Shown here: positions 39,483 to 50,454 of the stretch, piece by piece
Layout of the letters: each line of letters opens with the position of its first letter
Numbering within the stretch: the first letter of the stretch is position 1
Source: Nitrospira sp.
GTDB taxonomy: Bacteria; Nitrospirota; Nitrospiria; Nitrospirales; Nitrospiraceae
Assembly: GCA_024998685.1 (NCBI GenBank)
Contig: JACOEH010000032.1
Span: 1 to 55,825 of the forward strand
Length of the DNA: 55,825 nt
Direction: 5' to 3'
Position numbers and translations under genes: made by a program
Notes under the pieces: generated by a model
The model's input: the letters and a program-made list of their open reading frames with translations, nothing else
The model's database searches: none
What the model was told of the DNA's origin: nothing

Positions 39483-40085
39483 TTAGGCAGCCGCTTGGGC
39501 AGGCTGTGAATGATCTTGCGCCTGACGCGTTCGCAAACGCCAACTCAGGGCAATCAATAGGATGCCGAAAGCAATGGCATAGGCGCCGAGATACCACACG
39601 AGCCCGATCGCGCCGGCTTCGGGAAAGAAAGCAAGCAGGAAGCCGAGGACTATCGAGAAGATTCCAGAAAGGGCCAACATCCATTCCCCCTCGATTTCTT
39701 TGCGCAGTTTCACCGCGGCGGCAATCTGCAATCCTCCTGTAATAAGCGCCCAGGCTGAAACCACATAGACCAACACTAAAGCGGTGATGCCAGGCCAGAC
39801 AAAGCTGATGACAGCCGCTCCGATTCCAGCGATGCCCGACAGTAACAGAGCCCACCAAGGTTTTGGCCGATCGGTTTGCCGCCATGCAGCCACGAGATTG
39901 AAGAGTCCATCCAAGAAGGCATACATCCCGAATAGATAGACAAGCGCGAGCAAGGTGGAGAGCGGCATGAAGAACGCGACGATGCCGACGAGAATACCGA
40001 GCAGTCCACGGAGCGCGATCGCCCACCAGCGCATAGGAAGTTTAACCAGCTTATTTTCCTGTAGAATGGCAGTGGACGAGACCAT
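39483..40085 (-). CDS. HdeD-family membrane protein (DUF308)
   Basis: The 200-residue product has about six transmembrane helices in three pairs. Family traits are the repeated pairs L-L-G-I-L-V-G-I-V-A-F-F-M-P ... L-A-L-V-Y-L-F-G-M-Y-A-F-L-D-G and W-A-L-L-L-S-G-I-A-G-I. HdeD helps acid resistance in E. coli at high density; in other bacteria the role is unclear. The start is uncertain (ATG 40085, 40097 or 40034); none has a good ribosome site, and TATGCT lies seven bases before 40085. Confidence 0.78.
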   Translation of the reverse strand: MVSSTAILQENKLVKLPMRWWAIALRGLLGILVGIVAFFMPLSTLLALVYLFGMYAFLDGLFNLVAAWRQTDRPKPWWALLLSGIAGIGAAVISFVWPGITALVLVYVVSAWALITGGLQIAAAVKLRKEIEGEWMLALSGIFSIVLGFLLAFFPEAGAIGLVWYLGAYAIAFGILLIALSWRLRTRQAQDHSQPAQAAA

Positions 40086-40097
40086 AAAAAGAAGCAT

Positions 40098-40413
40098 ACT
40101 GCTCTTACGTGGGCGATGAGACTGGTGAATGCCCCAGTCTATTCCGCTATTCTGCGCTTCCAGCTTCTACTTCTCTATATGACGAGATGTGAAGAGCTGA
40201 TGCGTGTCTCCCAGGATCGTCCATTCTCTGGACCTGAGACTGCGGCCATCTGCAATCTTTTCGAAGGTAGAGTCCTTTCCCTTCCCTTCACCAGAACTAT
40301 GCAGCCGCCTGTTTCAGTGGCAAATCTTGCCCTAGTACATTCACGATCAAATGTGATACCGTGCCGCGGTCGCACCCCAATAGTTACATCGTCGTCTACA
40401 GTGGGCTGATTTC
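40098..40413. other. Intergenic region before the duplicated module
   Basis: These 316 bases carry no gene or convincing promoter. The last 60 or so bases resemble the region just upstream of the intact OmpA gene (43620-43689), so the duplication extends slightly beyond the coding part. A TGGCA-N7-TTGC-like sequence near 40317-40331 has the wrong spacing for sigma54. Confidence 0.45.
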
Positions 40414-40622
40414 ATGAGGTGTGCGGGGATTCTCACCAGCGGTGTCGTTACGTTGATACTCCTAGCCGTGGTGTATATCACGCGGCACCTCTCCTCCCCG
40501 CCACGGCCTACAGTCATGGTTTCCGCCACCTTCCACGCAAGCTTCGAACGAGGTCATTTGGTGTTTATGCGAGACATCAAACAAGCCTTCAGCGAAACCA
40601 TCACATCGAATTGCTGATGTAA
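40414..40622 (+). pseudogene. Remnant of a BON/OmpA-family gene (internal deletion, frameshift)
   Basis: The first 50 codons match the intact gene at 43690 (M-R-C-A-G-I-L-T-S-G versus M-R-R-S-G-I-F-T-G-G, then the shared L-I-L-L-A-V-V membrane helix and A-S-F), and the last ten codons, in another frame, read S-L-Q-R-N-H-H-I-E-L-L-M against G-L-Q-R-N-E-R-I-E-L-L-M. The middle 650 bp, encoding both BON-like segments and almost all of the OmpA domain, are missing. The copy is 209 bp against 861 bp; the missing 652 bp is not a multiple of three, hence the frameshift. A 67-residue open frame remains (to 40617) and could give a short membrane peptide. It is the partner position of the rod gene that follows. 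Confidence 0.8.
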
Positions 40623-40636
40623 GGACTGAATGCACT

Positions 40637-43402
40637 ATGAGCACACTGAACAGATGGTTACAGCAAAATTCTAAGAGTTCGTTCGAGCAACAATGCCAGC
40701 AGCTCGCTAATTTGTTGCGTGCGAAGGAACAGGCGCTGGAAACGACGTCGCACGAGTTGAAGGTGAAGACTGCGGCGATGCAGTTGCTCGAGCAGAAGAT
40801 CATGTCGTCCGAGACGCAGTTCACCTCAGCCCAACGAGAGCTGGTCGCCCGCAGCGAGCAGCTGAAGGCGCTCGAAGCAGAATTGGCAATACGGTCAAGG
40901 CGATTGGCGGACCTGGAAACCGATGGAAGCGCAGCACAGCAACAGGTGAGCGAGCTTAAGTCGATCATCGCTACCCAGGGGGACGAACTTCGTGCGGGCC
41001 AGCAGGCCCGGGAGGTCTTGAAGGAGGAAATCCGGGTCTTGCGGGAGCATATTGTGCAACTGAACGAGGGCCTCTCCGACCGGGACCACCTGCGTGCCCA
41101 GATGGCGAAGTTCGAGTCGGCCCAAGATCGCGTCCATCTGCTGGAAGTCGAACTGAGTGATCGGGAGGCCGCTCATCGTCGCAGGATTCAGCAGATCGAA
41201 CAGATCCTCGCGGAACGTGACCATCGCATCGGGGAGTTCGATGCCCTCGCCGCCGCCCAGGTGGAGGAACTCCGGGGGGCCCAGCAGGCCCGTCAGACGG
41301 CTGAGCAGGCCCGCGAAGTCCTGAAGGAGGAAATCCGCGTCCTGCGTGAACAGATCACCCAACTCAACGAAAGCCTCTCTGCCCGAGAGCGCCTTCGCGC
41401 CCAAGTAAAAGAGTTGGAGTCGATGAGAAGTCGCGTGCATCAGCTGGAGGTCGAACTGAGTGATCGCGAAGCGGCCCATCGGAGCACGCTCCAACAACTG
41501 GAGCAGGCCATTGCGGAACGAGACCATCGGATCAGTGAGTTCGATTCGTTTGCGGCCGCTCAGGCGAACGAAGTCCAGGATGCCCTGGAGACCTGTCGGA
41601 CCGCCGAGCAGGCCCGCGAAGTCCTCAAAGAAGAAATCCGCGTCCTGCGCGAACAGATCGCGCAATTGAACGAGGGGCTGGTTGACCGGGATAAAGTCCG
41701 AGCCCGCATGGAGAAACTGGAATCGGCCCAAGACCGCGTGCATCAGCTGGAGGTCGAACTGAGTGATCGCGAAGCGGCCCATCGGAGCACGCTCCAGCAA
41801 CTGGAGCAGGCCCTGACGGAACGAGACCGTCGGATCAGTAAGTTTGATTCACAGACAGCCACTCAGGCGCAAGAACTCCACGGGGCCCAGCAGGCCCGTC
41901 AGACGGCTGAGCAGGCTCGCGAAGTCCTGAAGGAGGAAATCCGCGTCCTGCGTGAACAGATCACCCAACTCAACGAAGGCCTCGCCGACCGCGACCAGCT
42001 CCGCGCTCAGGTGAAGAAGCTGGAATCGGCCCGCGACCGCGTGCATCAGCTGGAAGTTGAACTCAGTGATCGCGAAGCGGCCCATCGGGGCACGCTCCAA
42101 CAACTGGAGCAGGCCATTGCGGAACGAGACCATCGGATCAGTGAGTTCGATTCGTTTGCGGCCGCTCAGGCGAACGAAGTCCAGGATGCCCTGGAGACCT
42201 GTCGGACCGCCGAGCAGGCCCGCGAAGTCCTCAAAGAAGAAATCCGCGTCCTGCGCGAACAGATCGCGCAATTGAACGAGGGGCTGGTTGACCGGGATAA
42301 AGTCCGAGCCCGCATGGAGAAACTGGAATCGGCCCAAGACCGCGTGCATCAGCTGGAGGTCGAACTGAGTGATCGCGAAGCGGCCCATCGGAGCACGCTC
42401 CAACAACTGGAGCAGGCCATTGCGGAACGAGACCATCGGATCAGTGAGTTCGATTCGTTTGCGGCCGCTCAGGCGAACGAAGTCCAGGATGCCCTGGAGA
42501 CCTGTCGGACCGCCGAGCAGGCCCGCGAGGTCCTCAAAGAGGAAATCCGCGTCCTGCGTGAACAGATCGCGCAATTGAACGAAGGGTTGGCCCACCGAGA
42601 TCGGCTCCGCGCCCAGGTGAAGAAGCTGGAGGCGACCCAAGATCGCGTCCATCAGCTGGAGGTCGAACTGAGTGATCGGGAGGCGGCCCATCGGGGCACG
42701 ATCCAGCAACTTGAACGGACCCTCGCCGAACGAGATCAACGGATTGACAAGCTGGTGCCGGTCACCCATCTCCTGGGCGAGAAAGAGGCCGCGATCAAGG
42801 AATGGGAACGCACCCACGCACGCACCGTGCATGACCTAGAAGCCGAGACCGCCAAGCTGCACGAACAAGCGGCGGCTCAGGACCAACTCCGCGCACAACA
42901 TCAACTCGATGAGCAACGACTGCAGGAACGTGACGCTCAGATTGCCGATCTCACCAGACAGCTGCAGAATCTCCAAACAGAACGGCACGCGCTCCGTAAG
43001 GAAGTGCAGGGCATTCCGGAAAAAGAGGAGCAGATCGACCGCCTGCAGAAACGCCTCAAAGAACTGCGCGCGACCCTGCGGGCGACGCCCTCGTCAGCTG
43101 CCGTCCACTCCCCGCCGCCCCGCTCGAATGGGACCACATCGAATGCCTCAGGAGGATCGCCGAAAGGGAGTACGTCCGTGCCGGCCGACGATCTGAAAAA
43201 GATCTCAGGGATCGGGCCGGTCTTTGCAGGCACACTCCAGAAGCTAGGCACCCGCACGTTTATCCAGATCGCGCGGTGGAAACCCGAAGATATCGCGAAG
43301 ATTGCCAAGAAGCTCGATACCGACCCGGAGCGGATCAAACGAGAGAATTGGATCGCGGAGGCGAAGAAGCAACACTACCACAAGTACAAGGAACGGCTGT
43401 AG
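40637..43402 (+). CDS. Giant coiled-coil protein with C-terminal H3TH domain (upstream copy, no anchor)
   Basis: The 921-residue product starts 14 bp after the OmpA remnant. Residues 25-115 form a coiled coil shared with the downstream paralogue; 125-700 are six units of 101 residues whose core reads V-L-K-E-E-I-R-V-L-R-E-Q-I, then D-R-V-H-Q-L-E-V-E-L-S-D-R-E-A-A-H-R; 700-810 is more coiled coil; a Pro/Ser/Gly linker precedes the helix-hairpin-helix domain (about 850-915: D-D-L-K-K-I-S-G-I-G-P, then R-W-K-P-E-D-I-A-K-I). That domain resembles COG3743 (FEN1-like H3TH). The membrane anchor of the paralogue is missing: after M-S-T-L-N the sequence resumes at R-W-L, with about 20 hydrophobic residues lost. 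It should therefore be cytosolic. The role is unknown. Confidence 0.8.
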   Translation: MSTLNRWLQQNSKSSFEQQCQQLANLLRAKEQALETTSHELKVKTAAMQLLEQKIMSSETQFTSAQRELVARSEQLKALEAELAIRSRRLADLETDGSAAQQQVSELKSIIATQGDELRAGQQAREVLKEEIRVLREHIVQLNEGLSDRDHLRAQMAKFESAQDRVHLLEVELSDREAAHRRRIQQIEQILAERDHRIGEFDALAAAQVEELRGAQQARQTAEQAREVLKEEIRVLREQITQLNESLSARERLRAQVKELESMRSRVHQLEVELSDREAAHRSTLQQLEQAIAERDHRISEFDSFAAAQANEVQDALETCRTAEQAREVLKEEIRVLREQIAQLNEGLVDRDKVRARMEKLESAQDRVHQLEVELSDREAAHRSTLQQLEQALTERDRRISKFDSQTATQAQELHGAQQARQTAEQAREVLKEEIRVLREQITQLNEGLADRDQLRAQVKKLESARDRVHQLEVELSDREAAHRGTLQQLEQAIAERDHRISEFDSFAAAQANEVQDALETCRTAEQAREVLKEEIRVLREQIAQLNEGLVDRDKVRARMEKLESAQDRVHQLEVELSDREAAHRSTLQQLEQAIAERDHRISEFDSFAAAQANEVQDALETCRTAEQAREVLKEEIRVLREQIAQLNEGLAHRDRLRAQVKKLEATQDRVHQLEVELSDREAAHRGTIQQLERTLAERDQRIDKLVPVTHLLGEKEAAIKEWERTHARTVHDLEAETAKLHEQAAAQDQLRAQHQLDEQRLQERDAQIADLTRQLQNLQTERHALRKEVQGIPEKEEQIDRLQKRLKELRATLRATPSSAAVHSPPPRSNGTTSNASGGSPKGSTSVPADDLKKISGIGPVFAGTLQKLGTRTFIQIARWKPEDIAKIAKKLDTDPERIKRENWIAEAKKQHYHKYKERL
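41012..42735 (+). repeat. Six direct repeats of exactly 303 bp inside the coiled-coil gene
   Basis: The same codon of the V-L-K-E-E core begins at 41012, 41315, 41618, 41921, 42224 and 42527, a constant 303-bp step (101 residues) with no indel. Units 3 and 5 are almost identical at the DNA level over more than 200 bp, and units 2 and 4 share the Q-Q-A-R-Q-T block, an alternating pattern that points to expansion by duplication of two-unit blocks or gene conversion. Confidence 0.85.
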
Positions 43403-43689
43403 CCCGTTCTCCTCTTCACAGGTGTTCGACTGCGCCGTGATGCGGGATCCCTCCGGTTCTTCCCGTCGTTGACTCCTCCGCTCACCCCGACTATATGCTC
43501 TCACACTCTGTCCGATACAGAGCTCTGTATGAAGCCGCTCCGGATCGGCTCTGACCGAACAGTCAATACGGCTTGACACTGCTTGATCAGCTTGACTGGG
43601 TAGATCTCATCCTAGTAGATACGTCGTCACCTATGACACCGCCACGCCTCGCACGCCAGCCGTCATATTATCTACAGCAGGCAAAGCTC
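43403..43689. other. Intergenic region between the two module copies
   Basis: The 287 bp contain a perfect 16-bp palindrome at 43515-43530 and two TTGAC hexamers (43574, 43593) without a good -10; the best is TAGATA at 43617. Similarity to the region before the upstream copy begins in the last 60-70 bases. Confidence 0.45.
43515..43530. promoter_or_regulatory. Perfect 16-bp palindrome, possible operator
   Basis: ATACAGAGCTCTGTAT is its own reverse complement. It lies 160 bp before the intact BON/OmpA gene and 44 bp before the first TTGACA hexamer. No loop is possible in it, so it is more likely a dimeric regulator site than a terminator. Confidence 0.4.
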
Positions 43690-44550
43690 ATGAGACGCTC
43701 GGGGATTTTCACCGGCGGCATTGTTGCGTTGATACTCCTCGCCGTGGTGTGCATCCCGCGGCATCTCTCCTCGTCGTCACGGCCCGTCGCCGTCGGGCCC
43801 GCCTCCTTTTACGCAAGCTTCCAGCAAGGCGGCCTGGTGCTTCACGGTTCGTTGCCTACCGAACGCAGTAAGGCCTCCATCCTGGAGCAGGCTCACACAC
43901 TCTATGCGAAAACGGGAATACGCGTGATCGACCAGGTCCTCGTAGACAAACAGGTCGGTGCGGCGGCATGGGTCGACAATGTCCCACATTTCTTACCGAT
44001 TTTTGGGATGATGGTGGAGCGTGGTTCAATCATCATTGATGGACGTTCGTTGGTCGTAACCGGTCAGGTCAGGGGTTCTCGCGAGAAGGCCGAAATATTG
44101 CAGGCCGTCGCTCCTGCGATACGAGCCGGCTTGAGGATCGAAGATCGCGTGGTCGTGGCACCGACGACATCATCTTCTTCCCCCGTCGTTCCTCTCTCGG
44201 CACTTCAGCTGTTGCTGAATCAGGTTCTTGCGAAATCCTCGATCGAATTTGAGCCAAAAAGTGCCGTGATCTCGACCAAAGGACAGGCGGTACTGGATCA
44301 AATCATCGCGCTTTTACGAAGAGCTCCCGGTACGCCGATTGAAATCGCGAGTCATACCGATACTGTGGGTGAGGCGGAATACAACATGCAGCTGAGTCGG
44401 CGTCGCGCGGAGGCGGTCAAACAGTACTTGACCAACCACGGACTCACGAATCCGTTTACCACGATCGGCTATGGTTCCACACGGCCTCTCTCCCAGGGGA
44501 AGCAGCAACCGGGCCTCCAACGCAATGAGCGAATTGAATTACTGATGTAA
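43690..44550 (+). CDS. Inner-membrane BON/OmpA-family protein (intact module partner)
   Basis: From ATG 43690 the product has 286 residues. An uncleaved membrane helix (about 7-23) follows a short Arg-containing N-terminus, so the rest should be periplasmic. Two BON-like segments (about 38-86, A-S-F-Q-Q-G-G-L-V-L-H-G-S; 111-156, G-S-I-I-I-D-G-R-S-L-V-V-T-G-Q) precede an OmpA-type peptidoglycan-binding domain (about 172-286) with the ligand motif S-H-T-D-T-V-G-E-A-E-Y-N and L-S-R-R-R-A-E-A-V. This arrangement recalls ArfA of mycobacteria (BON plus OmpA), but the anchored rod partner is new to me. The rod gene starts 14 bp after the stop. The frame is open to 43573 upstream; the start at 43690 is chosen because the remnant copy begins there too. 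Confidence 0.82.
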   Translation: MRRSGIFTGGIVALILLAVVCIPRHLSSSSRPVAVGPASFYASFQQGGLVLHGSLPTERSKASILEQAHTLYAKTGIRVIDQVLVDKQVGAAAWVDNVPHFLPIFGMMVERGSIIIDGRSLVVTGQVRGSREKAEILQAVAPAIRAGLRIEDRVVVAPTTSSSSPVVPLSALQLLLNQVLAKSSIEFEPKSAVISTKGQAVLDQIIALLRRAPGTPIEIASHTDTVGEAEYNMQLSRRRAEAVKQYLTNHGLTNPFTTIGYGSTRPLSQGKQQPGLQRNERIELLM

Positions 44551-44564
44551 GGACGGAATGACGT

Positions 44565-46664
44565 ATGATCACACTGATAAGCCAGATGGTCGGATGCCTC
44601 CTCATCGCGGCAGGAATCGGATTCGCGGTCGGCTGGTGGCTGAGGCGGCTCCCGAAAAGTTCGCCGGAGTTTCAATCCAACGATCTAGCCGGTCTGTTGC
44701 GGACTAAGGAACAGGCCCTGGAGACCATGTCACGCGACTTGAAGGTCAAGTCCTCTGCCGTACAAATTCTTGAGCAGAAAATCATGTCGGCCGAAACCCT
44801 GCATTCTTCGGTTCAACGAGAGCTTATTTCACGCAATGAACGGCTCAAGACACTCGAAGCAGAACTCACGGCCCGATCGAGACAACTGACGAACTTAGAG
44901 ACAGAAGGGACCGCTGTTCGTCAACGTACCCATGCAATCGAGTCTCACGCCGCCGCGCAAGCCGATGACCTTCGCACTGCCCAACACGCTTGTCGAGCCG
45001 CCGAGGAAGCCCGCGAGGTTCTGAAAGAGGAAATTCGGGAGTTTCGCAACCACGTCGCTCAACTCAATGAAGAGCTTGCCGACCGCAACCACCGGATCAG
45101 TGAGGTCGAATCGATTCTTGCGACTCGGACCAATGAACTCCACACCGCTCAACAACTCTGTCGGACCGCCGAGCAGGCCAGGGATGTTATGGAGCGAGAA
45201 GTGGGAGTCTTGCGTGAACAGATCGCGCAACTCAACGAGGGTCTCGCCGACCGAGACCGGCTCCGCGCCCAGGTGAAGAAGTTGGAGGCCACTCAAGACC
45301 GTGTGCATCAACTGGAGGTCGAACTCAGCGATCGCGAAGCCGTTCATCGCGGTACGATTCAGCAATTCGAACGGGCGCTCGCCGAACGCGACCACCGCAT
45401 CGGAGAATTCGATACGCTCGCAGCGGCCCAGATTGATGAACTCCGGAAGGCTCACCAGGCCTGTCGGACTGCCGAGCAGACACGCGAAGTCCTGAAGGAA
45501 GAAATCCGCGTCCTCCGCGAACAGATCGTCCAACTCAACGAGGGTCTGGCCGACCGGGACCGACTCCGCACCCAGGTGGAGAAGCTGGAGTCGGCGCAAG
45601 CCCGCATCCATCAGCTAGAGGTGGAGCTGAGCGACCGGGAGGCCGCCCATCGCGGCATCATCCAGCAACTCGAACGATCCCTCGCCGAGCGAGACCATCG
45701 AATCAACGAAGTTGATGCAACCGCCATCGCCCAAGCTGATGAACTTCGCGCGGCGCAACAGGCCTGTCGGGCCGCCGATCAAGCGCGTGAGGTCATGGAG
45801 CAGGAAGTCCGGGTGCTGCGGGAGCACATCGCGCAGCTCAACGACGGCCTCGCCGACCGAGATCGGCTCCGCGCCCAGGTGGCGAAATTGGAGTCGGCGC
45901 AAGACCGCGTCCATCAACTGGAGGTGGAACTGAGTGATCGGGAAGCCGGCCATCGGGGCATGATCCAGCAACTCGAACGGTCCATCGTTGAACGAGACCG
46001 CCGCATTGAAGAACTGGTGCCGATCACCCTCCTTCTTCGCGAGAAGGAATCAGAACTCAACGAATGGGGAAGAAAATACGCGCGCACGGTTCAAGAACAT
46101 GAAGGGGAAGTAGAAAAATTCCAAGAACAATGCGCTACGCAGGAACAACTCCGCGCGCAACATCTGCTCGATGAGCAGCGTCTGCATGAACGAGACGAAC
46201 AGATTGCGAGTCTCCATCGTGAGCTGCATGACCTTCAAGCGGAACGTCAAGCTCTCTCTCAGGAGGTACGACTTATTCCGGAAAAAGATGAGCACATCGA
46301 TCGCCTGCAAAAACGCCTCAGAGAAATGCGGGCGGAACTTCGTGCAAAACCTGCTTCAGCAACCGCCACGTCTCGTCCAACCCGCCAGAATGGAGCCGAG
46401 ACGGGTTCACAGGGAGGCACATCCAAAGTTAGTAAGGACATTCAAGAAGACGATCTCAAAAAGATTAGTGGAATCGGGCCTGTTTTTGCTCACACTCTGA
46501 ATAAGATGGGTACCCGCACCTTTATTCAAATTGCTCGTTGGAAACCGGAAGATATTGCGAAGATCGCGAAGAAGCTCGATACTGATCCCGAGCGTATTAA
46601 ACGAGATAATTGGATCGCTGCCGCCAAGAAGCAACATTACCGAAAGTACGGGGAACGGCTCTGA
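44565..46664 (+). CDS. Membrane-anchored coiled-coil protein with C-terminal H3TH domain
   Basis: The 699-residue product has one N-terminal membrane helix (about 8-27, V-G-C-L-L-I-A-A-G-I-G-F-A-V-G-W-W) followed by L-R-R-L-P-K, which by the positive-inside rule places the rest in the cytoplasm. A coiled coil of about 550 residues follows, including three 101-residue units (45183, 45486, 45789 step by 303 bp) and a shorter 56-residue unit starting at 45015. The linker (about 600-625) leads to a helix-hairpin-helix domain (about 628-695: D-D-L-K-K-I-S-G-I-G-P-V-F, then W-K-P-E-D-I-A-K-I and I-K-R-D-N-W). Related H3TH domains occur in COG3743, linked to FEN1-like nucleases, but no nuclease residues are seen here. 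Binding to DNA, RNA or protein is possible. Confidence 0.8.
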   Translation: MITLISQMVGCLLIAAGIGFAVGWWLRRLPKSSPEFQSNDLAGLLRTKEQALETMSRDLKVKSSAVQILEQKIMSAETLHSSVQRELISRNERLKTLEAELTARSRQLTNLETEGTAVRQRTHAIESHAAAQADDLRTAQHACRAAEEAREVLKEEIREFRNHVAQLNEELADRNHRISEVESILATRTNELHTAQQLCRTAEQARDVMEREVGVLREQIAQLNEGLADRDRLRAQVKKLEATQDRVHQLEVELSDREAVHRGTIQQFERALAERDHRIGEFDTLAAAQIDELRKAHQACRTAEQTREVLKEEIRVLREQIVQLNEGLADRDRLRTQVEKLESAQARIHQLEVELSDREAAHRGIIQQLERSLAERDHRINEVDATAIAQADELRAAQQACRAADQAREVMEQEVRVLREHIAQLNDGLADRDRLRAQVAKLESAQDRVHQLEVELSDREAGHRGMIQQLERSIVERDRRIEELVPITLLLREKESELNEWGRKYARTVQEHEGEVEKFQEQCATQEQLRAQHLLDEQRLHERDEQIASLHRELHDLQAERQALSQEVRLIPEKDEHIDRLQKRLREMRAELRAKPASATATSRPTRQNGAETGSQGGTSKVSKDIQEDDLKKISGIGPVFAHTLNKMGTRTFIQIARWKPEDIAKIAKKLDTDPERIKRDNWIAAAKKQHYRKYGERL
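45183..46000 (+). repeat. 303-bp repeats in the downstream coiled-coil gene
   Basis: Equivalent codons lie at 45183, 45486 and 45789, again exactly 303 bp apart, with a shortened unit (168 bp) before them starting at 45015. These units are more diverged from one another than those of the upstream copy, so the upstream array is the younger expansion. Confidence 0.75.
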
Positions 46665-46989
46665 CTAAGGAAAGTTTGCGGCGGCGCTAAGAGAAGCACA
46701 GCTTCCCATAGCAGAGGGGACCTTGACCGGGTTCCTCCGGCACTACCGGCAATGAGCGCTAAACCGATCTTCGAGCGCCGAGTCAGCTTCCGGTGGGTTT
46801 TAGCCGCAATCTGGGTTGTCTCGACACAACTGGAGTGTCAATCTGACCATCTTGCAGGGTATCTCCATTTTGCACAAACAGTCAGCTGCATCACACGTTC
46901 ATGAAATGAGGTTTTTAGACGAGCGTAACCTGATCGGTCGTTCCTGGAATGTTTGACTTCCCCTCCTCATCTCCATAGAATCCTCCGCC
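46665..46989. other. Intergenic region before dnaE
   Basis: 325 bp without a visible gene, tRNA or clear terminator. The dnaE promoter lies at its end (46953-46981). GC-rich segments around 46730-46760 can form weak hairpins but nothing convincing. Confidence 0.45.
46953..46981 (+). promoter_or_regulatory. Sigma70-type promoter for dnaE (leaderless)
   Basis: TTGACT at 46953-46958 and TAGAAT at 46976-46981 are 17 bp apart. The -10 ends eight bases before ATG 46990, and no Shine-Dalgarno precedes that ATG, so the message probably begins at or next to the start codon. Confidence 0.6.
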
Positions 46990-49900
46990 ATGGCTTCGTC
47001 CTTCGTCCACCTGCATCTCCACACGCAATTCAGCCTCCTCGACGGCGCAAATCAGATTGAGCCGCTGGTCCGACAGATCAAATCGTTCAATCAGCCGGCT
47101 GTGGCGATGACGGATCATGGCAACATGTTCGGCGCAGTCGAGTTCTATCGCAAAGCCAAAGAGGCGGGCGTCAAGCCGATCATCGGTTGTGAAGCCTACA
47201 TGGCACTCGGTAGTCGGCATGCCAAGAAAGACAGCGGCCTCGCGCATAACGATTACTATCATCTGATTCTCCTCGCGAGAAATCTGACAGGCTACCAGAA
47301 TCTCATCAAGCTCGTCAGTAAAGGGTATCTTGAAGGGTTCTATTATAAACCTCGTATCGACAAGGAACTGTTAAAGCTGCATCATGAGGGTATTATCGCT
47401 CTTTCCGGCTGTTTGAGCGGCGAGATCCCCTATCTGATCGGCCAACAAGACATGCAGGGTGCCATGGCGGTGGCGGGCGAATTTCAAGAGATCTTTGGGA
47501 AAGACCACTTCTATCTCGAGGTGCAGGCGAACGGACTTGATCACCAGCGGGTGGCCAATGCCGGGTTGATGGACATTCACAAGAAGCTCGGGATTCCACT
47601 GGCCGGCACCAATGATTGTCACTACTTGAAGAAGGAAGATGCGCGGCCGCATGAACTGATGCTGTGCCTGCAGACGGGAAAGACGGTCAGCGACCCACAC
47701 CGGATGAAGTTCGACACGGATCAGCTGTACGTCAAATCAACGGAGGAAATCGCTCCGGCGTTTACGGAATTTCCCGGCGCCGTGACGAACACTTGCCGCA
47801 TCGCCGACTATTGCGACCTCGACCTCCCGCTGAATAAGACCTATCTTCCGCAATATCGCATCCCCGACGGATTTAAGGATCGTGAGTCCTATCTGGAACA
47901 TCTCGTCCTCGCCGGACTGAAGGAACGACTAAAAGAAAGGCCCAGCCGGGTGGCGTCCGCTGTCTACGATCAGCGCCTTCGGGAAGAGCTGATGGTGATC
48001 TGTTCGATGGGATTTGCAGGCTACTTCCTCATCGTCTGGGACATCATCCGTTTCGCTCGATCACAAGGGATCCCGGTCGGGCCTGGCCGAGGTTCTGCCG
48101 CCGGCAGCCTTGTGGCCTATGCCCTGCGCATTACCGACCTCGATCCACTCGTCTATACGCTCTTGTTCGAGCGTTTCTTGAATCCTGAGCGCGTCTCTCT
48201 TCCCGATATCGATATGGATTTCTGCATGGATCGCCGTGGCGAGGTGATCAACTACGTGGTGGATAAGTACGGCACCGACCATGTCGCTCAGATTATTACG
48301 TTTGGCACGCTCGGGGCCAAGGCGGCGATCCGGGATGTGGGACGCGTGTTGGAATTGTCCTACGCCGACGCCGATAAAGTAGCGAAGCTGGTCCCCAATC
48401 AATTGAACATCACCTTACAGCAGGCTATGGAGACGGAGCCGCGATTGCGCGAGCTGGTGGAGACGGACCCCAAGGTCAAAGAACTCATGGCCAATGCGCA
48501 ATCTCTCGAAGGTCTGGCCCGACATGCTTCGACCCATGCGGCTGGCGTCGTGATCTCAGAAGGACCGCTCACCGAGCACGTGCCGCTGTACAAGGGCGCC
48601 AACGACGAAATTGTGACCCAGTATTCGATGGGAGACGTCGAGAAAATCGGGTTGGTCAAATTCGACTTCCTTGGCCTCAAGACCCTCACGATGATCCGGC
48701 GAGCCGAGACTCTCATCAACGAAACGCATCCCGAGGCGCCGCCGCTTGTGGTCGATCAGGTGCCGTTCGATGATCCAGCCACCTTTGCCCTGTTGAGCTC
48801 CGGAAAAACAACCGGGCTGTTCCAGCTGGAAAGCTCCGGTATGCGCGATCTGCTCACCGGACTGAAGCCAGACCGGTTCGAAGATATCATTGCTATCATC
48901 GCGCTCTATCGCCCTGGACCGATGGATCTCATTCCTGATTTCATCAAGCGAAAGCAAGGCAAGGTGCCCATTACCTATGAGTTGCCTGACTTGGAGCCGC
49001 TCCTGAAGGATACCTATGGTGTCATCGTCTATCAGGAACAGGTCATGGCAATCGCCAACAAGATGGCCGGGTTTTCGCTGGGCCAAGCCGATATTCTCCG
49101 GCGTGCGATGGGCAAAAAGAAGCCGGAAGAGATGGAAAAGTTGCGTACTAAGTTCCTCGATGGCGCGAGGCAGAAGAAGATTCCTGAGAAGAAAGCCGAG
49201 AAGCTCTACGAGTTGATCCAGAAATTCGCCGGATACGGTTTTAATAAATCGCACGCGGCCGCCTATGCCGTCGTGTGTTATCAGACGGCCTACTTGAAAG
49301 CCCACTACCCGACCGAATTTATGGCGGCCCTCATGACGACCGACATGGGCAATCAAGACAAGCTGGTCGGCTATTTCACGGAATGTCGGGACCTGGGCAT
49401 CAAAGTCCTGGGGCCTGATGTGAACGCCAGTCAAAAACACTTCGCAGTGGCCGGCGGGGCAATCAGGTTCGGTTTGGCGGCCATTAAGAATGTGGGTGAG
49501 GGTGCCGTGGAGTCGGTCTTGGAAGTGCGGACTCAAGACGGTCTCTTCGGATCGTTCTTTGACTTCTGTCGACGGGTCGATCTTCACAAAGTCAACAAAC
49601 GGATGTTGGAAGGCTTGATTAAGGCCGGCGCGTTCGATTCGACCGGTGCCAAGCGCGCACAACTGATGGCGGTACTCGATCAAGCCGTAGAAGAAGGCGC
49701 GGCGGCTCAGCGGGAGCGTGAGCTCGGGCAAACCAGCATCTTCGGGGAGGAGCTGAATGGGCACACGACTTCGACGGCCTTGCCGATACCTCCGTTGCCT
49801 TCGCTTGCGGAATGGGATCAAGCGCAACGATTGAAGTACGAACGGGAACTGACCGGGTTCTATATTTCCGCCCATCCCCTCGCCCGCTACGAAGCGACGC

Positions 49901-50454
49901 TGAGTGCCTTGTCGACCACCACGACGGTGAGATTGAAAGAATGCTCCGACGGCGGCGAGGTGAAAATCTGCGGTATTATCGCCACGGTCAAATCGATGCT
50001 GACGAAGAAGGGCGATCGAATGGCCTATCTCACGGTGGAAGATCTGCAAGGAACCACCGAAGTGATCGTATTCCCCGATTTGTTCAGGACTGCCGGTGAG
50101 CTGATCGTCCCTGAGCAGATCGTTCGCATTACCGGCACCATCGACCGAGGTGACAAGGGCACAAAAATTCGCGGGAGTAAGATCGAACCATTGGCCGAGG
50201 TTCAGGCGCAGTCCATCAAACGTATTCGTATCCGCCTCAGTGATCGCCCGGAGGTCCGTGAGCAGTTGCCTCGGTTGCTTGATGTCTTTCGGCGGCATCC
50301 CGGCAGCACCTCGATCTCGATGTCGTTTCGAACCGACGGTGCCTTGGAAGCTGAGACGGCTCCCCTCCCCCATCTCACCGTCTGCGCCAGCGACCTTTTT
50401 ATGTCGGATGTCGAGGAAGTGCTAGGCAAGGGGGCCCTCTCTTTGCTATCTTAG
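46990..50454 (+). CDS. dnaE: DNA polymerase III alpha subunit
   Basis: The replicative polymerase catalytic subunit, 1154 residues, the usual size of DnaE1. The PHP domain (about 1-275) has H-L-H-L-H-T-Q-F-S-L-L-D-G and retains many of the metal residues found in active PHP domains, so proofreading or pyrophosphatase activity is possible. The palm carries P-D-I-D-M-D-F (catalytic Asp pair, about 404-410) with G-P-G-R-G-S-A-A-G-S before it. The fingers contain G-L-F-Q-L-E-S-S-G-M-R and the K-K-P-E-E-M block. A tandem HhH and an OB domain (about 985-1070, E-L-T-G-F-Y-I-S-A-H-P-L then V-K-I-C-G-I-I) follow, and the C-terminal tail binds tau. accA is 17 bp downstream, as in E. coli. No intein. 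Confidence 0.96.
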   Translation: MASSFVHLHLHTQFSLLDGANQIEPLVRQIKSFNQPAVAMTDHGNMFGAVEFYRKAKEAGVKPIIGCEAYMALGSRHAKKDSGLAHNDYYHLILLARNLTGYQNLIKLVSKGYLEGFYYKPRIDKELLKLHHEGIIALSGCLSGEIPYLIGQQDMQGAMAVAGEFQEIFGKDHFYLEVQANGLDHQRVANAGLMDIHKKLGIPLAGTNDCHYLKKEDARPHELMLCLQTGKTVSDPHRMKFDTDQLYVKSTEEIAPAFTEFPGAVTNTCRIADYCDLDLPLNKTYLPQYRIPDGFKDRESYLEHLVLAGLKERLKERPSRVASAVYDQRLREELMVICSMGFAGYFLIVWDIIRFARSQGIPVGPGRGSAAGSLVAYALRITDLDPLVYTLLFERFLNPERVSLPDIDMDFCMDRRGEVINYVVDKYGTDHVAQIITFGTLGAKAAIRDVGRVLELSYADADKVAKLVPNQLNITLQQAMETEPRLRELVETDPKVKELMANAQSLEGLARHASTHAAGVVISEGPLTEHVPLYKGANDEIVTQYSMGDVEKIGLVKFDFLGLKTLTMIRRAETLINETHPEAPPLVVDQVPFDDPATFALLSSGKTTGLFQLESSGMRDLLTGLKPDRFEDIIAIIALYRPGPMDLIPDFIKRKQGKVPITYELPDLEPLLKDTYGVIVYQEQVMAIANKMAGFSLGQADILRRAMGKKKPEEMEKLRTKFLDGARQKKIPEKKAEKLYELIQKFAGYGFNKSHAAAYAVVCYQTAYLKAHYPTEFMAALMTTDMGNQDKLVGYFTECRDLGIKVLGPDVNASQKHFAVAGGAIRFGLAAIKNVGEGAVESVLEVRTQDGLFGSFFDFCRRVDLHKVNKRMLEGLIKAGAFDSTGAKRAQLMAVLDQAVEEGAAAQRERELGQTSIFGEELNGHTTSTALPIPPLPSLAEWDQAQRLKYERELTGFYISAHPLARYEATLSALSTTTTVRLKECSDGGEVKICGIIATVKSMLTKKGDRMAYLTVEDLQGTTEVIVFPDLFRTAGELIVPEQIVRITGTIDRGDKGTKIRGSKIEPLAEVQAQSIKRIRIRLSDRPEVREQLPRLLDVFRRHPGSTSISMSFRTDGALEAETAPLPHLTVCASDLFMSDVEEVLGKGALSLLS

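Follow-up and report, generated by a model that had tools for sequence, protein, structure and literature searches.

Why should a gene for a protein with the makings of a peptidoglycan anchor lie directly ahead of a gene for a long coiled-coil protein that ends in a helix-hairpin-helix-type (H3TH) domain, and what could the two products do together? The question is raised by a 55,825-nt stretch of Nitrospira sp. DNA (contig JACOEH010000032.1; hereafter the window, to whose + strand all coordinates refer), in which OmpA1 (43690-44550) is followed after 14 bp by CC2 (44565-46664). Here we describe the conservation of this gene pair, report a cysteine at one end of the hydrophobic helix of each partner, and propose from the sequences, at about even confidence, that the two proteins would form a disulfide-clasped tether that starts at peptidoglycan, crosses the inner membrane and ends in the cytoplasm at a ligand that may be DNA.

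The OmpA and H3TH genes form a conserved pair

A profile of the H3TH domain matched 54 of 295 genomes of the phylum (the window's own included), 53 of which belong to one family and fall into six tool-defined genera; several genomes of the genera other than the window's are titled Nitrospira in public records. The lone match outside the family (G256, locus L225), in what we take to be a DNA polymerase IV, was weak (E 7e-4) and was dropped. Outside the window's genus, the H3TH gene comes straight after an OmpA gene in all 29 matching family genomes, with a 4-base overlap or a gap between the two in all but one. A sample of 59 genomes held 23 with an H3TH protein, all from the window's genus (its own genome included). 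An OmpA1 orthologue was found in 18 of these; in three of the other five the locus lies at a contig end (G001, G002 and G013), and two have only CC1, the second coiled-coil gene of the window (G003 and G019). Sixteen listed genomes of this genus gave no H3TH match.

Altogether we collected 136 distinct H3TH open reading frames (ORFs), 72 of them with an OmpA gene upstream. Exclusion of L106, whose N-terminus is masked, left 71 distinct pairs with readable N-termini, comprising 54 of the OmpA1/CC2 type (system 1) and 17 of a second gene family from other Nitrospira genomes (system 2). Spacing within these pairs runs from -4 to +35 bp, bar a single value of -55 that arises from an over-long ORF. 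The 64 ORFs without an OmpA neighbour comprise 26 of the CC1 type, 18 with a truncated 5′ end, 15 of CC2 or other type and five of system 2. Among the 15 are masked or fragmentary ORFs, two at contig starts (L071 and L157, the latter lacking the cysteine described below) and one whole gene with no adjoining OmpA (L165), while the five are fragments, frame-broken or, in one case, a fusion (L172). Adjacency kept in several genomes had been named in the original prediction as support for a real system, and it is found here across genera and in two gene families. The downstream pair is real and conserved, and we regard it as nearly certain that the partners work together.

Each partner carries an invariant cysteine at one end of its predicted membrane helix

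OmpA1 (286 aa) has one predicted membrane helix (residues 4-22, 43699-43755; hydropathy 2.54), and CC2 (699 aa) has one hydrophobic helix at its N-terminus. Cys21 of OmpA1 (codon 43750-43752) and Cys11 of CC2 (codon 44595-44597) are both invariant in 32 of 32 alignment rows, in which mean column identity is 50% for OmpA1 and 39% for CC2. Throughout system 1, the OmpA protein has a cysteine at the outer end of its helix (54/54) and the partner has one, Cys10 or Cys11, near the start of its own (54/54). The corresponding counts for system 2 are 16/17, with one ORF that is missing its N-terminus (L069) as the exception, and 17/17. These paired invariant cysteines are a new observation, missed in the original prediction. 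Among the best 120 of 408 OmpA1 homologues, 118 have the helix-end cysteine, the remaining two starting past the helix, and 116 contain exactly one cysteine. The best 120 of 623 rod homologues include 79 that bear a helix, and all of these have a cysteine within their first 14 residues; two of the 41 helix-less proteins have one within the first 15, and both of these have fragment-like starts. Helix and cysteine are both absent from the CC1 rod, where the adjoining OmpA gene is a remnant (see below).

G10, A13, L14, L17 and C21, which are the conserved positions of the OmpA1 helix, share one helical face (shuffling test, p = 0.0001; 0.0003 with the cysteine column removed). In the CC2 helix, C11 is followed every four residues by A15, G19 and G23. 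The genome has 13 DSBA-family matches, some of them pieces of one gene, and one VKOR. At one system 2 locus (L172, 4927-6675), a single ORF without an OmpA domain runs from the helix of the OmpA protein through a proline-rich linker into the partner's helix and rod; this fusion would be the hairpin that is needed if both cysteines lie on one side of the membrane. A related system 2 arrangement, apparently nearly fused, seems to occur at L068 (2864-5159).

OmpA1 combines an OmpA domain with predicted BON-like folds

Because most listed OmpA1 homologues are 284-292 residues long (some reach about 310), the likely start of the gene is at 43690, giving 286 codons, and not at the longest-ORF start, 43573. 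The OmpA domain (44248-44526) scores 75.4 bits against Pfam OmpA (PF00691), for which the cut-off is 27.2. It contains D224 (30/32 rows) and R239 (32/32), which have the 15-residue spacing of the diaminopimelate-binding Asp/Arg pair, given as D271/R286 for A. baumannii OmpA in PMC6572160. Ahead of it, a region that scores below the cut-off for Pfam BON (17.9 bits) is predicted by AlphaFold2 to form two BON-like folds, at about residues 38-86 and 112-157 (43801-44160). The top Foldseek match of the predicted fold is Rv0899/OmpATb (2l26; E 4.5e-12), the central domain of which was also matched; with a root-mean-square deviation of 11.8 over 261 columns, the domains match but their arrangement does not. 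One membrane helix, BON-like segments and a peptidoglycan-binding domain had all been predicted for this protein and are borne out. The ratio of non-synonymous to synonymous substitution rates (dN/dS) over the last 120 codons of the OmpA genes is 0.18 (21 pairs), which shows that the OmpA domain is under purifying selection; codons 1-22 of intact OmpA genes give 0.42 (18 pairs).

A second, longer OmpA copy (320-361 aa) lies 3′ of the H3TH gene in six loci (L139, L145, L147, L148, L149 and L153), and the two of these copies that were aligned both keep the helix-end cysteine.

The rod is built from 101-residue units

The helix and long coiled-coil-like region predicted for CC2 were likewise found, the tip probably has the predicted helix-hairpin-helix fold, and the protein is probably a parallel dimer. 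The coiled coils of CC1 and CC2 are in-register repeats of 303 nt, or 101 residues. By DNA comparison there are six units in CC1 (40949-42763) and three in CC2 (45120-46025); by an anchor motif, five and three. Of 106 intervals between successive anchor motifs, 89 measure 101 residues, 12 measure 202, one measures 303 and four have other lengths. The lengths of CC2-type homologues also move in 101-residue steps, clustering at 441-443, 541-544, 643-645 and 744-746; the CC2 of the window falls in a second, less populated series, at 598 and 699. With a helix rise of 0.15 nm per residue, one unit corresponds to about 15 nm. Because two units of CC1 (42038-42337 and 41432-41731; 300 nt each, 606 nt apart) are 99% identical, rod units appear to be still copied or exchanged, the CC1 sequence pointing to recent copying or gene conversion. 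Kinship with SMC/Rad50 was rejected, as SMC_prok_B scores 62.1 bits with CC1 and 44.7 with CC2 against a cut-off of 567.

The H3TH tip is under strong purifying selection

The H3TH domains, putative members of COG3743, at the C-terminal ends of CC1 (43187-43399) and CC2 (46449-46661) are the only two detected in the window's genome (E <= 1). Over the last 70 codons, dN/dS is 0.08 for CC2 (21 pairs) and 0.11 for CC1 (10 pairs), which shows strong purifying selection on the tip. The structural model of CC2 has a predicted local distance difference test score of 83-90 across the domain (68.5 overall), and the modelled H3TH resembles RadA N-domains, Pol theta and NusA repeats, some of which face DNA and some protein; Foldseek gave no match for the domain at E <= 0.001, and Pfam HHH_5 fell under its cut-off. 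Homologues are named in their source records as "predicted flap endonuclease-1-like 5′ DNA nuclease". Within the window's genus, the domains of CC1 and CC2 have a net charge of +4 to +7; in genera g14, g17, g19 and g21 the range is +2 to +8.

An OmpA remnant precedes a rod without a membrane helix

The original prediction described two OmpA and rod gene pairs, each spaced by 14 bp. This holds for the downstream pair. Upstream, the OmpA gene is a remnant of 67 codons (40414-40617) that retains the membrane-helix part alone, and 19 bp separate it from CC1 (40637-43402; 921 aa), a coiled coil with an H3TH tip and no membrane helix; two intact tandem modules are thus rejected. The first 53 residues of the remnant match OmpA1 by phmmer, and the ORF has no Pfam match. 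Relatives carry similar short ORFs with divergent later parts, and in several species the ORF ahead of CC1 has 63-74 codons. Because codons 1-21 of seven remnant-type ORFs give a dN/dS of 0.35 (21 pairs), the start of the ORF may have been kept as a leader or a short membrane peptide. CC1 begins MSTLNRWLQQ and shares the H3TH tip and the rod head with CC2. No membrane helix was predicted in the CC1 of the window, where the best 19-residue hydropathy is 0.12, and all 26 tabulated CC1 proteins lack both a helix and a cysteine within the first 15 residues. We infer that the OmpA-rod pair was doubled, after which the upstream OmpA gene decayed and its rod became soluble.

Downstream of CC2 lies an ORF (46990-50454) that we take to be dnaE and matched as the same gene across loci. 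This gene lies 3′ of the locus in members of three family genera (g1, g14 and g19). G003 and G019 keep CC1 alone in front of it, and CC1-only loci occur in G192 and G242 as well. Promoter and terminator scans of 40080-47010 gave counts close to the shuffled level (2 against 1.8 and 9 against 7.0, respectively).

A second gene family and distant recurrences

System 2, absent from the window's genome, comprises a small OmpA protein of about 190-200 aa with one helix and a partner in which a helix and a stretch rich in VEVPVEK are combined with one to three H3TH domains; these domains are 40-44% identical to those of system 1. The two genes usually overlap by 4 bases.

More distant pairs came to light around L165, whose contig is titled Verrucomicrobiales, where 86 of 141 genomes have an H3TH match. 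For these Verrucomicrobiales metagenome-assembled genome (MAG) relatives, which are taken to be Verrucomicrobiota, 30 loci were returned, and 14 of them have an OmpA-domain gene immediately 5′ of a membrane H3TH gene; in one of the 14 (L264) the two are separated by an ORF that resembles the split first half of the gene (L288). The pair was seen in 17 of 20 fetched stretches, most of them picked for their upstream OmpA gene, and three of four OmpA proteins tested pass the Pfam OmpA cut-off, the fourth falling just short. The full Verrucomicrobial OmpA protein is rare: of the 288 genomes in G542's phylum, 50 match it, and at E < 1e-50 only four do besides the query's own. Eight plasmid records have an H3TH match; three were examined, and one of these, from Rhizobium lusitanum, carries a pair, in which a BON-OmpA gene is followed after 11 bp by a gene whose product combines several hydrophobic helices with two H3TH domains. 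From the Verrucomicrobial and Rhizobium pairs it follows that a wall anchor paired with a membrane H3TH protein recurs with different spacers, and the module looks to be present in apparently three phyla. Many H3TH genes in these distant genomes have no OmpA neighbour.

Several other H3TH proteins were met on the way. A MAG titled Deltaproteobacteria encodes a coiled-coil H3TH protein, cut by the contig start (L155, 1-810), that is 52% identical to the Nitrospira tip (the first row of the profile); among 119 genomes around it only its own and three weak matches were returned, and the gene may reflect transfer or misbinning. The domain is C-terminal in proteins at L271, L277, L280 and L335, which look to be ribosomal proteins, namely L22 and, in a Sulfurovum gene that directly precedes tsf, S2. 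Giant proteins with many copies of the domain, in open frames of up to about 2900 residues, occur in L263 (G462), G461, G468, G474 and G504, among the Verrucomicrobiales-MAG relatives.

A proposed tether and its alternatives

In the arrangement that we propose, OmpA1 would be a signal-anchored protein whose periplasmic OmpA domain binds peptidoglycan through the kept Asp/Arg pair, and CC2 would place a short N-terminus outside and its rod and H3TH tip in the cytoplasm. Net charge ahead of the CC cysteine is 0 or -1 in 71/71 pairs, and it is positive after the helix in 59/71. Because its peptidoglycan role puts the OmpA1 N-terminus inside and the positive-inside rule puts that of CC2 outside, both cysteines would be periplasmic with the helices packed antiparallel, Cys21 and Cys11 lying at the same end, where the cell's Dsb/VKOR system could oxidise them to an interchain disulfide. 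The rod would serve as a spacer that mostly grows or shrinks by whole units of 101 residues, soluble CC1 might co-assemble with CC2, and the H3TH tip would bind the nucleoid or a protein on it, which is the weakest step. We consider the topology from wall through membrane to cytoplasm likely and slightly favour a mixed OmpA1-CC2 disulfide. The full picture of a bacterial bridge resembling the LINC (linker of nucleoskeleton and cytoskeleton) complex of the nuclear envelope, with a covalent antiparallel helix pair, peptidoglycan outside, the nucleoid inside and a reach set in steps of about 15 nm, is speculative and on balance unlikely. A link from wall through inner membrane to cytoplasm was also the original prediction, and the charges of CC2 and the peptidoglycan residues of OmpA1 fit it; the nucleoid remains a tentative ligand.

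Several observations weigh against parts of this proposal. One-facedness of the CC2 helix is not significant (p = 0.13), the same cysteines could form homodimer disulfides, and the cysteines are not conserved in the Verrucomicrobial pairs, where pairing is thus independent of them; for the latter reason the clasp would be a trait of the Nitrospira family. CC1-only loci without an intact adjoining OmpA1 (L092, L093, L239 and L240) imply that CC1 persists without it. OmpA1 and CC2 might pair through their helices alone, each cysteine cross-linking its own homodimer or packing in an interface. The coiled coil of CC2 would bring two Cys11 residues together, conservation in its helix is broad, and the Verrucomicrobial pairs do without; we nevertheless find this rather unlikely, given that in two gene families each partner has one cysteine, at matching ends of helices with opposite predicted orientations, and that CC1, also a coiled coil, lacks helix and cysteine beside its remnant OmpA. 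As to orientation, the C-terminal flank of the CC helix is neutral or negative in 12/71 pairs and the flanking charges of OmpA1 are alone insufficient. The Nitrospira periplasm is unusually wide, and a long rod could span it with the H3TH domain acting there. This inverted topology is improbable in view of the charges around the CC2 helix, the several further cysteines found in many rods of the genus, which would be unexpected in an oxidising compartment, and the two helices that precede the rod in the L172 fusion. OmpA1 as a Pal-like outer-membrane lipoprotein with a lipidated cysteine would account for the N-terminal helix, the charged start and the cysteine at residue 21, and is very improbable: the residue before the cysteine is V, L, I or F in 70/70 OmpA proteins, a lipobox occurs in 0/70, and the lipoprotein anchor was rejected on that count.

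Acidic tips in genus g12 (net charge -2 to -5 in 7/7 tested) and the altered hairpin motif of g17 (GIDP or GIDS) argue against DNA binding everywhere, and because of them we hold DNA as the ligand of the tip only tentatively, at somewhat less than even. The tip might equally bind a protein, the pair acting as a wall-anchored organiser of a membrane complex or of the cell pole, a reading that also stops short of even. It is favoured by the same departures in g12 and g17, by the fold shared with NusA repeat domains, one of which was solved with the protein SuhB, and by the H3TH-type domains that end a complex I subunit and a reaction-centre protein, protein-O, for which the authors call the function of the domain obscure (PMC12079452). 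The hairpin G-[IV]-G-P in 10/10 H3TH alignment rows, the net charge of +2 to +8 in five other genera and the nearest folds, mostly of DNA-transaction proteins, speak for DNA, though a shared fold proves no function. The nucleoid ligand of the original prediction accords with the basic tip of most genera tested and sits poorly with g12 and with the reaction-centre and complex I proteins. Finally, all system 1 loci descend from one ancestor, and pairs within one family are not independent evidence, so that the genes could be neighbours by chance or shared descent with no joint function. That is scarcely credible, since the pairing recurs in system 2, in the Verrucomicrobiales-MAG relatives and in Rhizobium with different rods and linkers.

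Relation to known systems

Searches of open-licence PubMed Central papers showed no described system of this make-up that was recognisable from titles and the opening lines of abstracts. FimV is grouped with HubP as a polar landmark protein. According to PMC8789113, Vibrio cholerae HubP likewise has a peptidoglycan-binding part outside, one membrane helix and a large cytoplasmic part, which contacts the chromosome-partition protein ParA1. HubP and FimV are single chains with LysM and TPR domains, neither of which was found in CC1, CC2 or OmpA1 at E 0.01; the module described here has instead two genes, OmpA and BON domains, an H3TH tip and paired cysteines.

The plan of CC2, a single N-terminal helix with a cytoplasmic, partly helical part, is that of EzrA, ZipA and ZapG (YhcB). 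We know of no H3TH domain or OmpA partner gene for any of the three. Rv3852, a nucleoid-associated protein, is anchored in the membrane by a single helix, which unlike that of CC2 is C-terminal, and the accessible portion of PMC8233713 mentions no wall-binding partner. Mycobacterium ArfA/OmpATb (Rv0899) shares with OmpA1 a membrane anchor, a BON-type centre and an OmpA-type C-domain. However, OmpA1 scores 41.5 bits against NCBIfam NF051434, below the curated cut-off of 81, and is therefore not filed as ArfA, and the available text of PMC6151718 mentions no coiled-coil/H3TH partner. Dinoroseobacter shibae protein-O (PDB 8yy9; PMC12079452) has membrane helices joined Cys-Cys and a C-terminal domain that the H3TH matches at E 2.3e-19, so a disulfide between membrane helices of an H3TH protein has a precedent. 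In protein-O, as far as the source describes it, both helices belong to one chain, the bond is on the cytoplasmic side, the gene lies among complex I genes and there is no rod.

Implications

Whether and how bacteria fasten their chromosome or cytoplasm to the wall is a long-standing question, and to our knowledge the links known from wall to cell interior, such as HubP, are single proteins. The module in Nitrospira, a widespread nitrifying genus, yields a precise prediction, namely that one cysteine from each partner would enter a mixed disulfide. For the common and unexplained H3TH domain, it supplies a recurrent partner, a wall-binding OmpA/BON protein, in Nitrospira relatives, Verrucomicrobiales-MAG relatives and Rhizobium.

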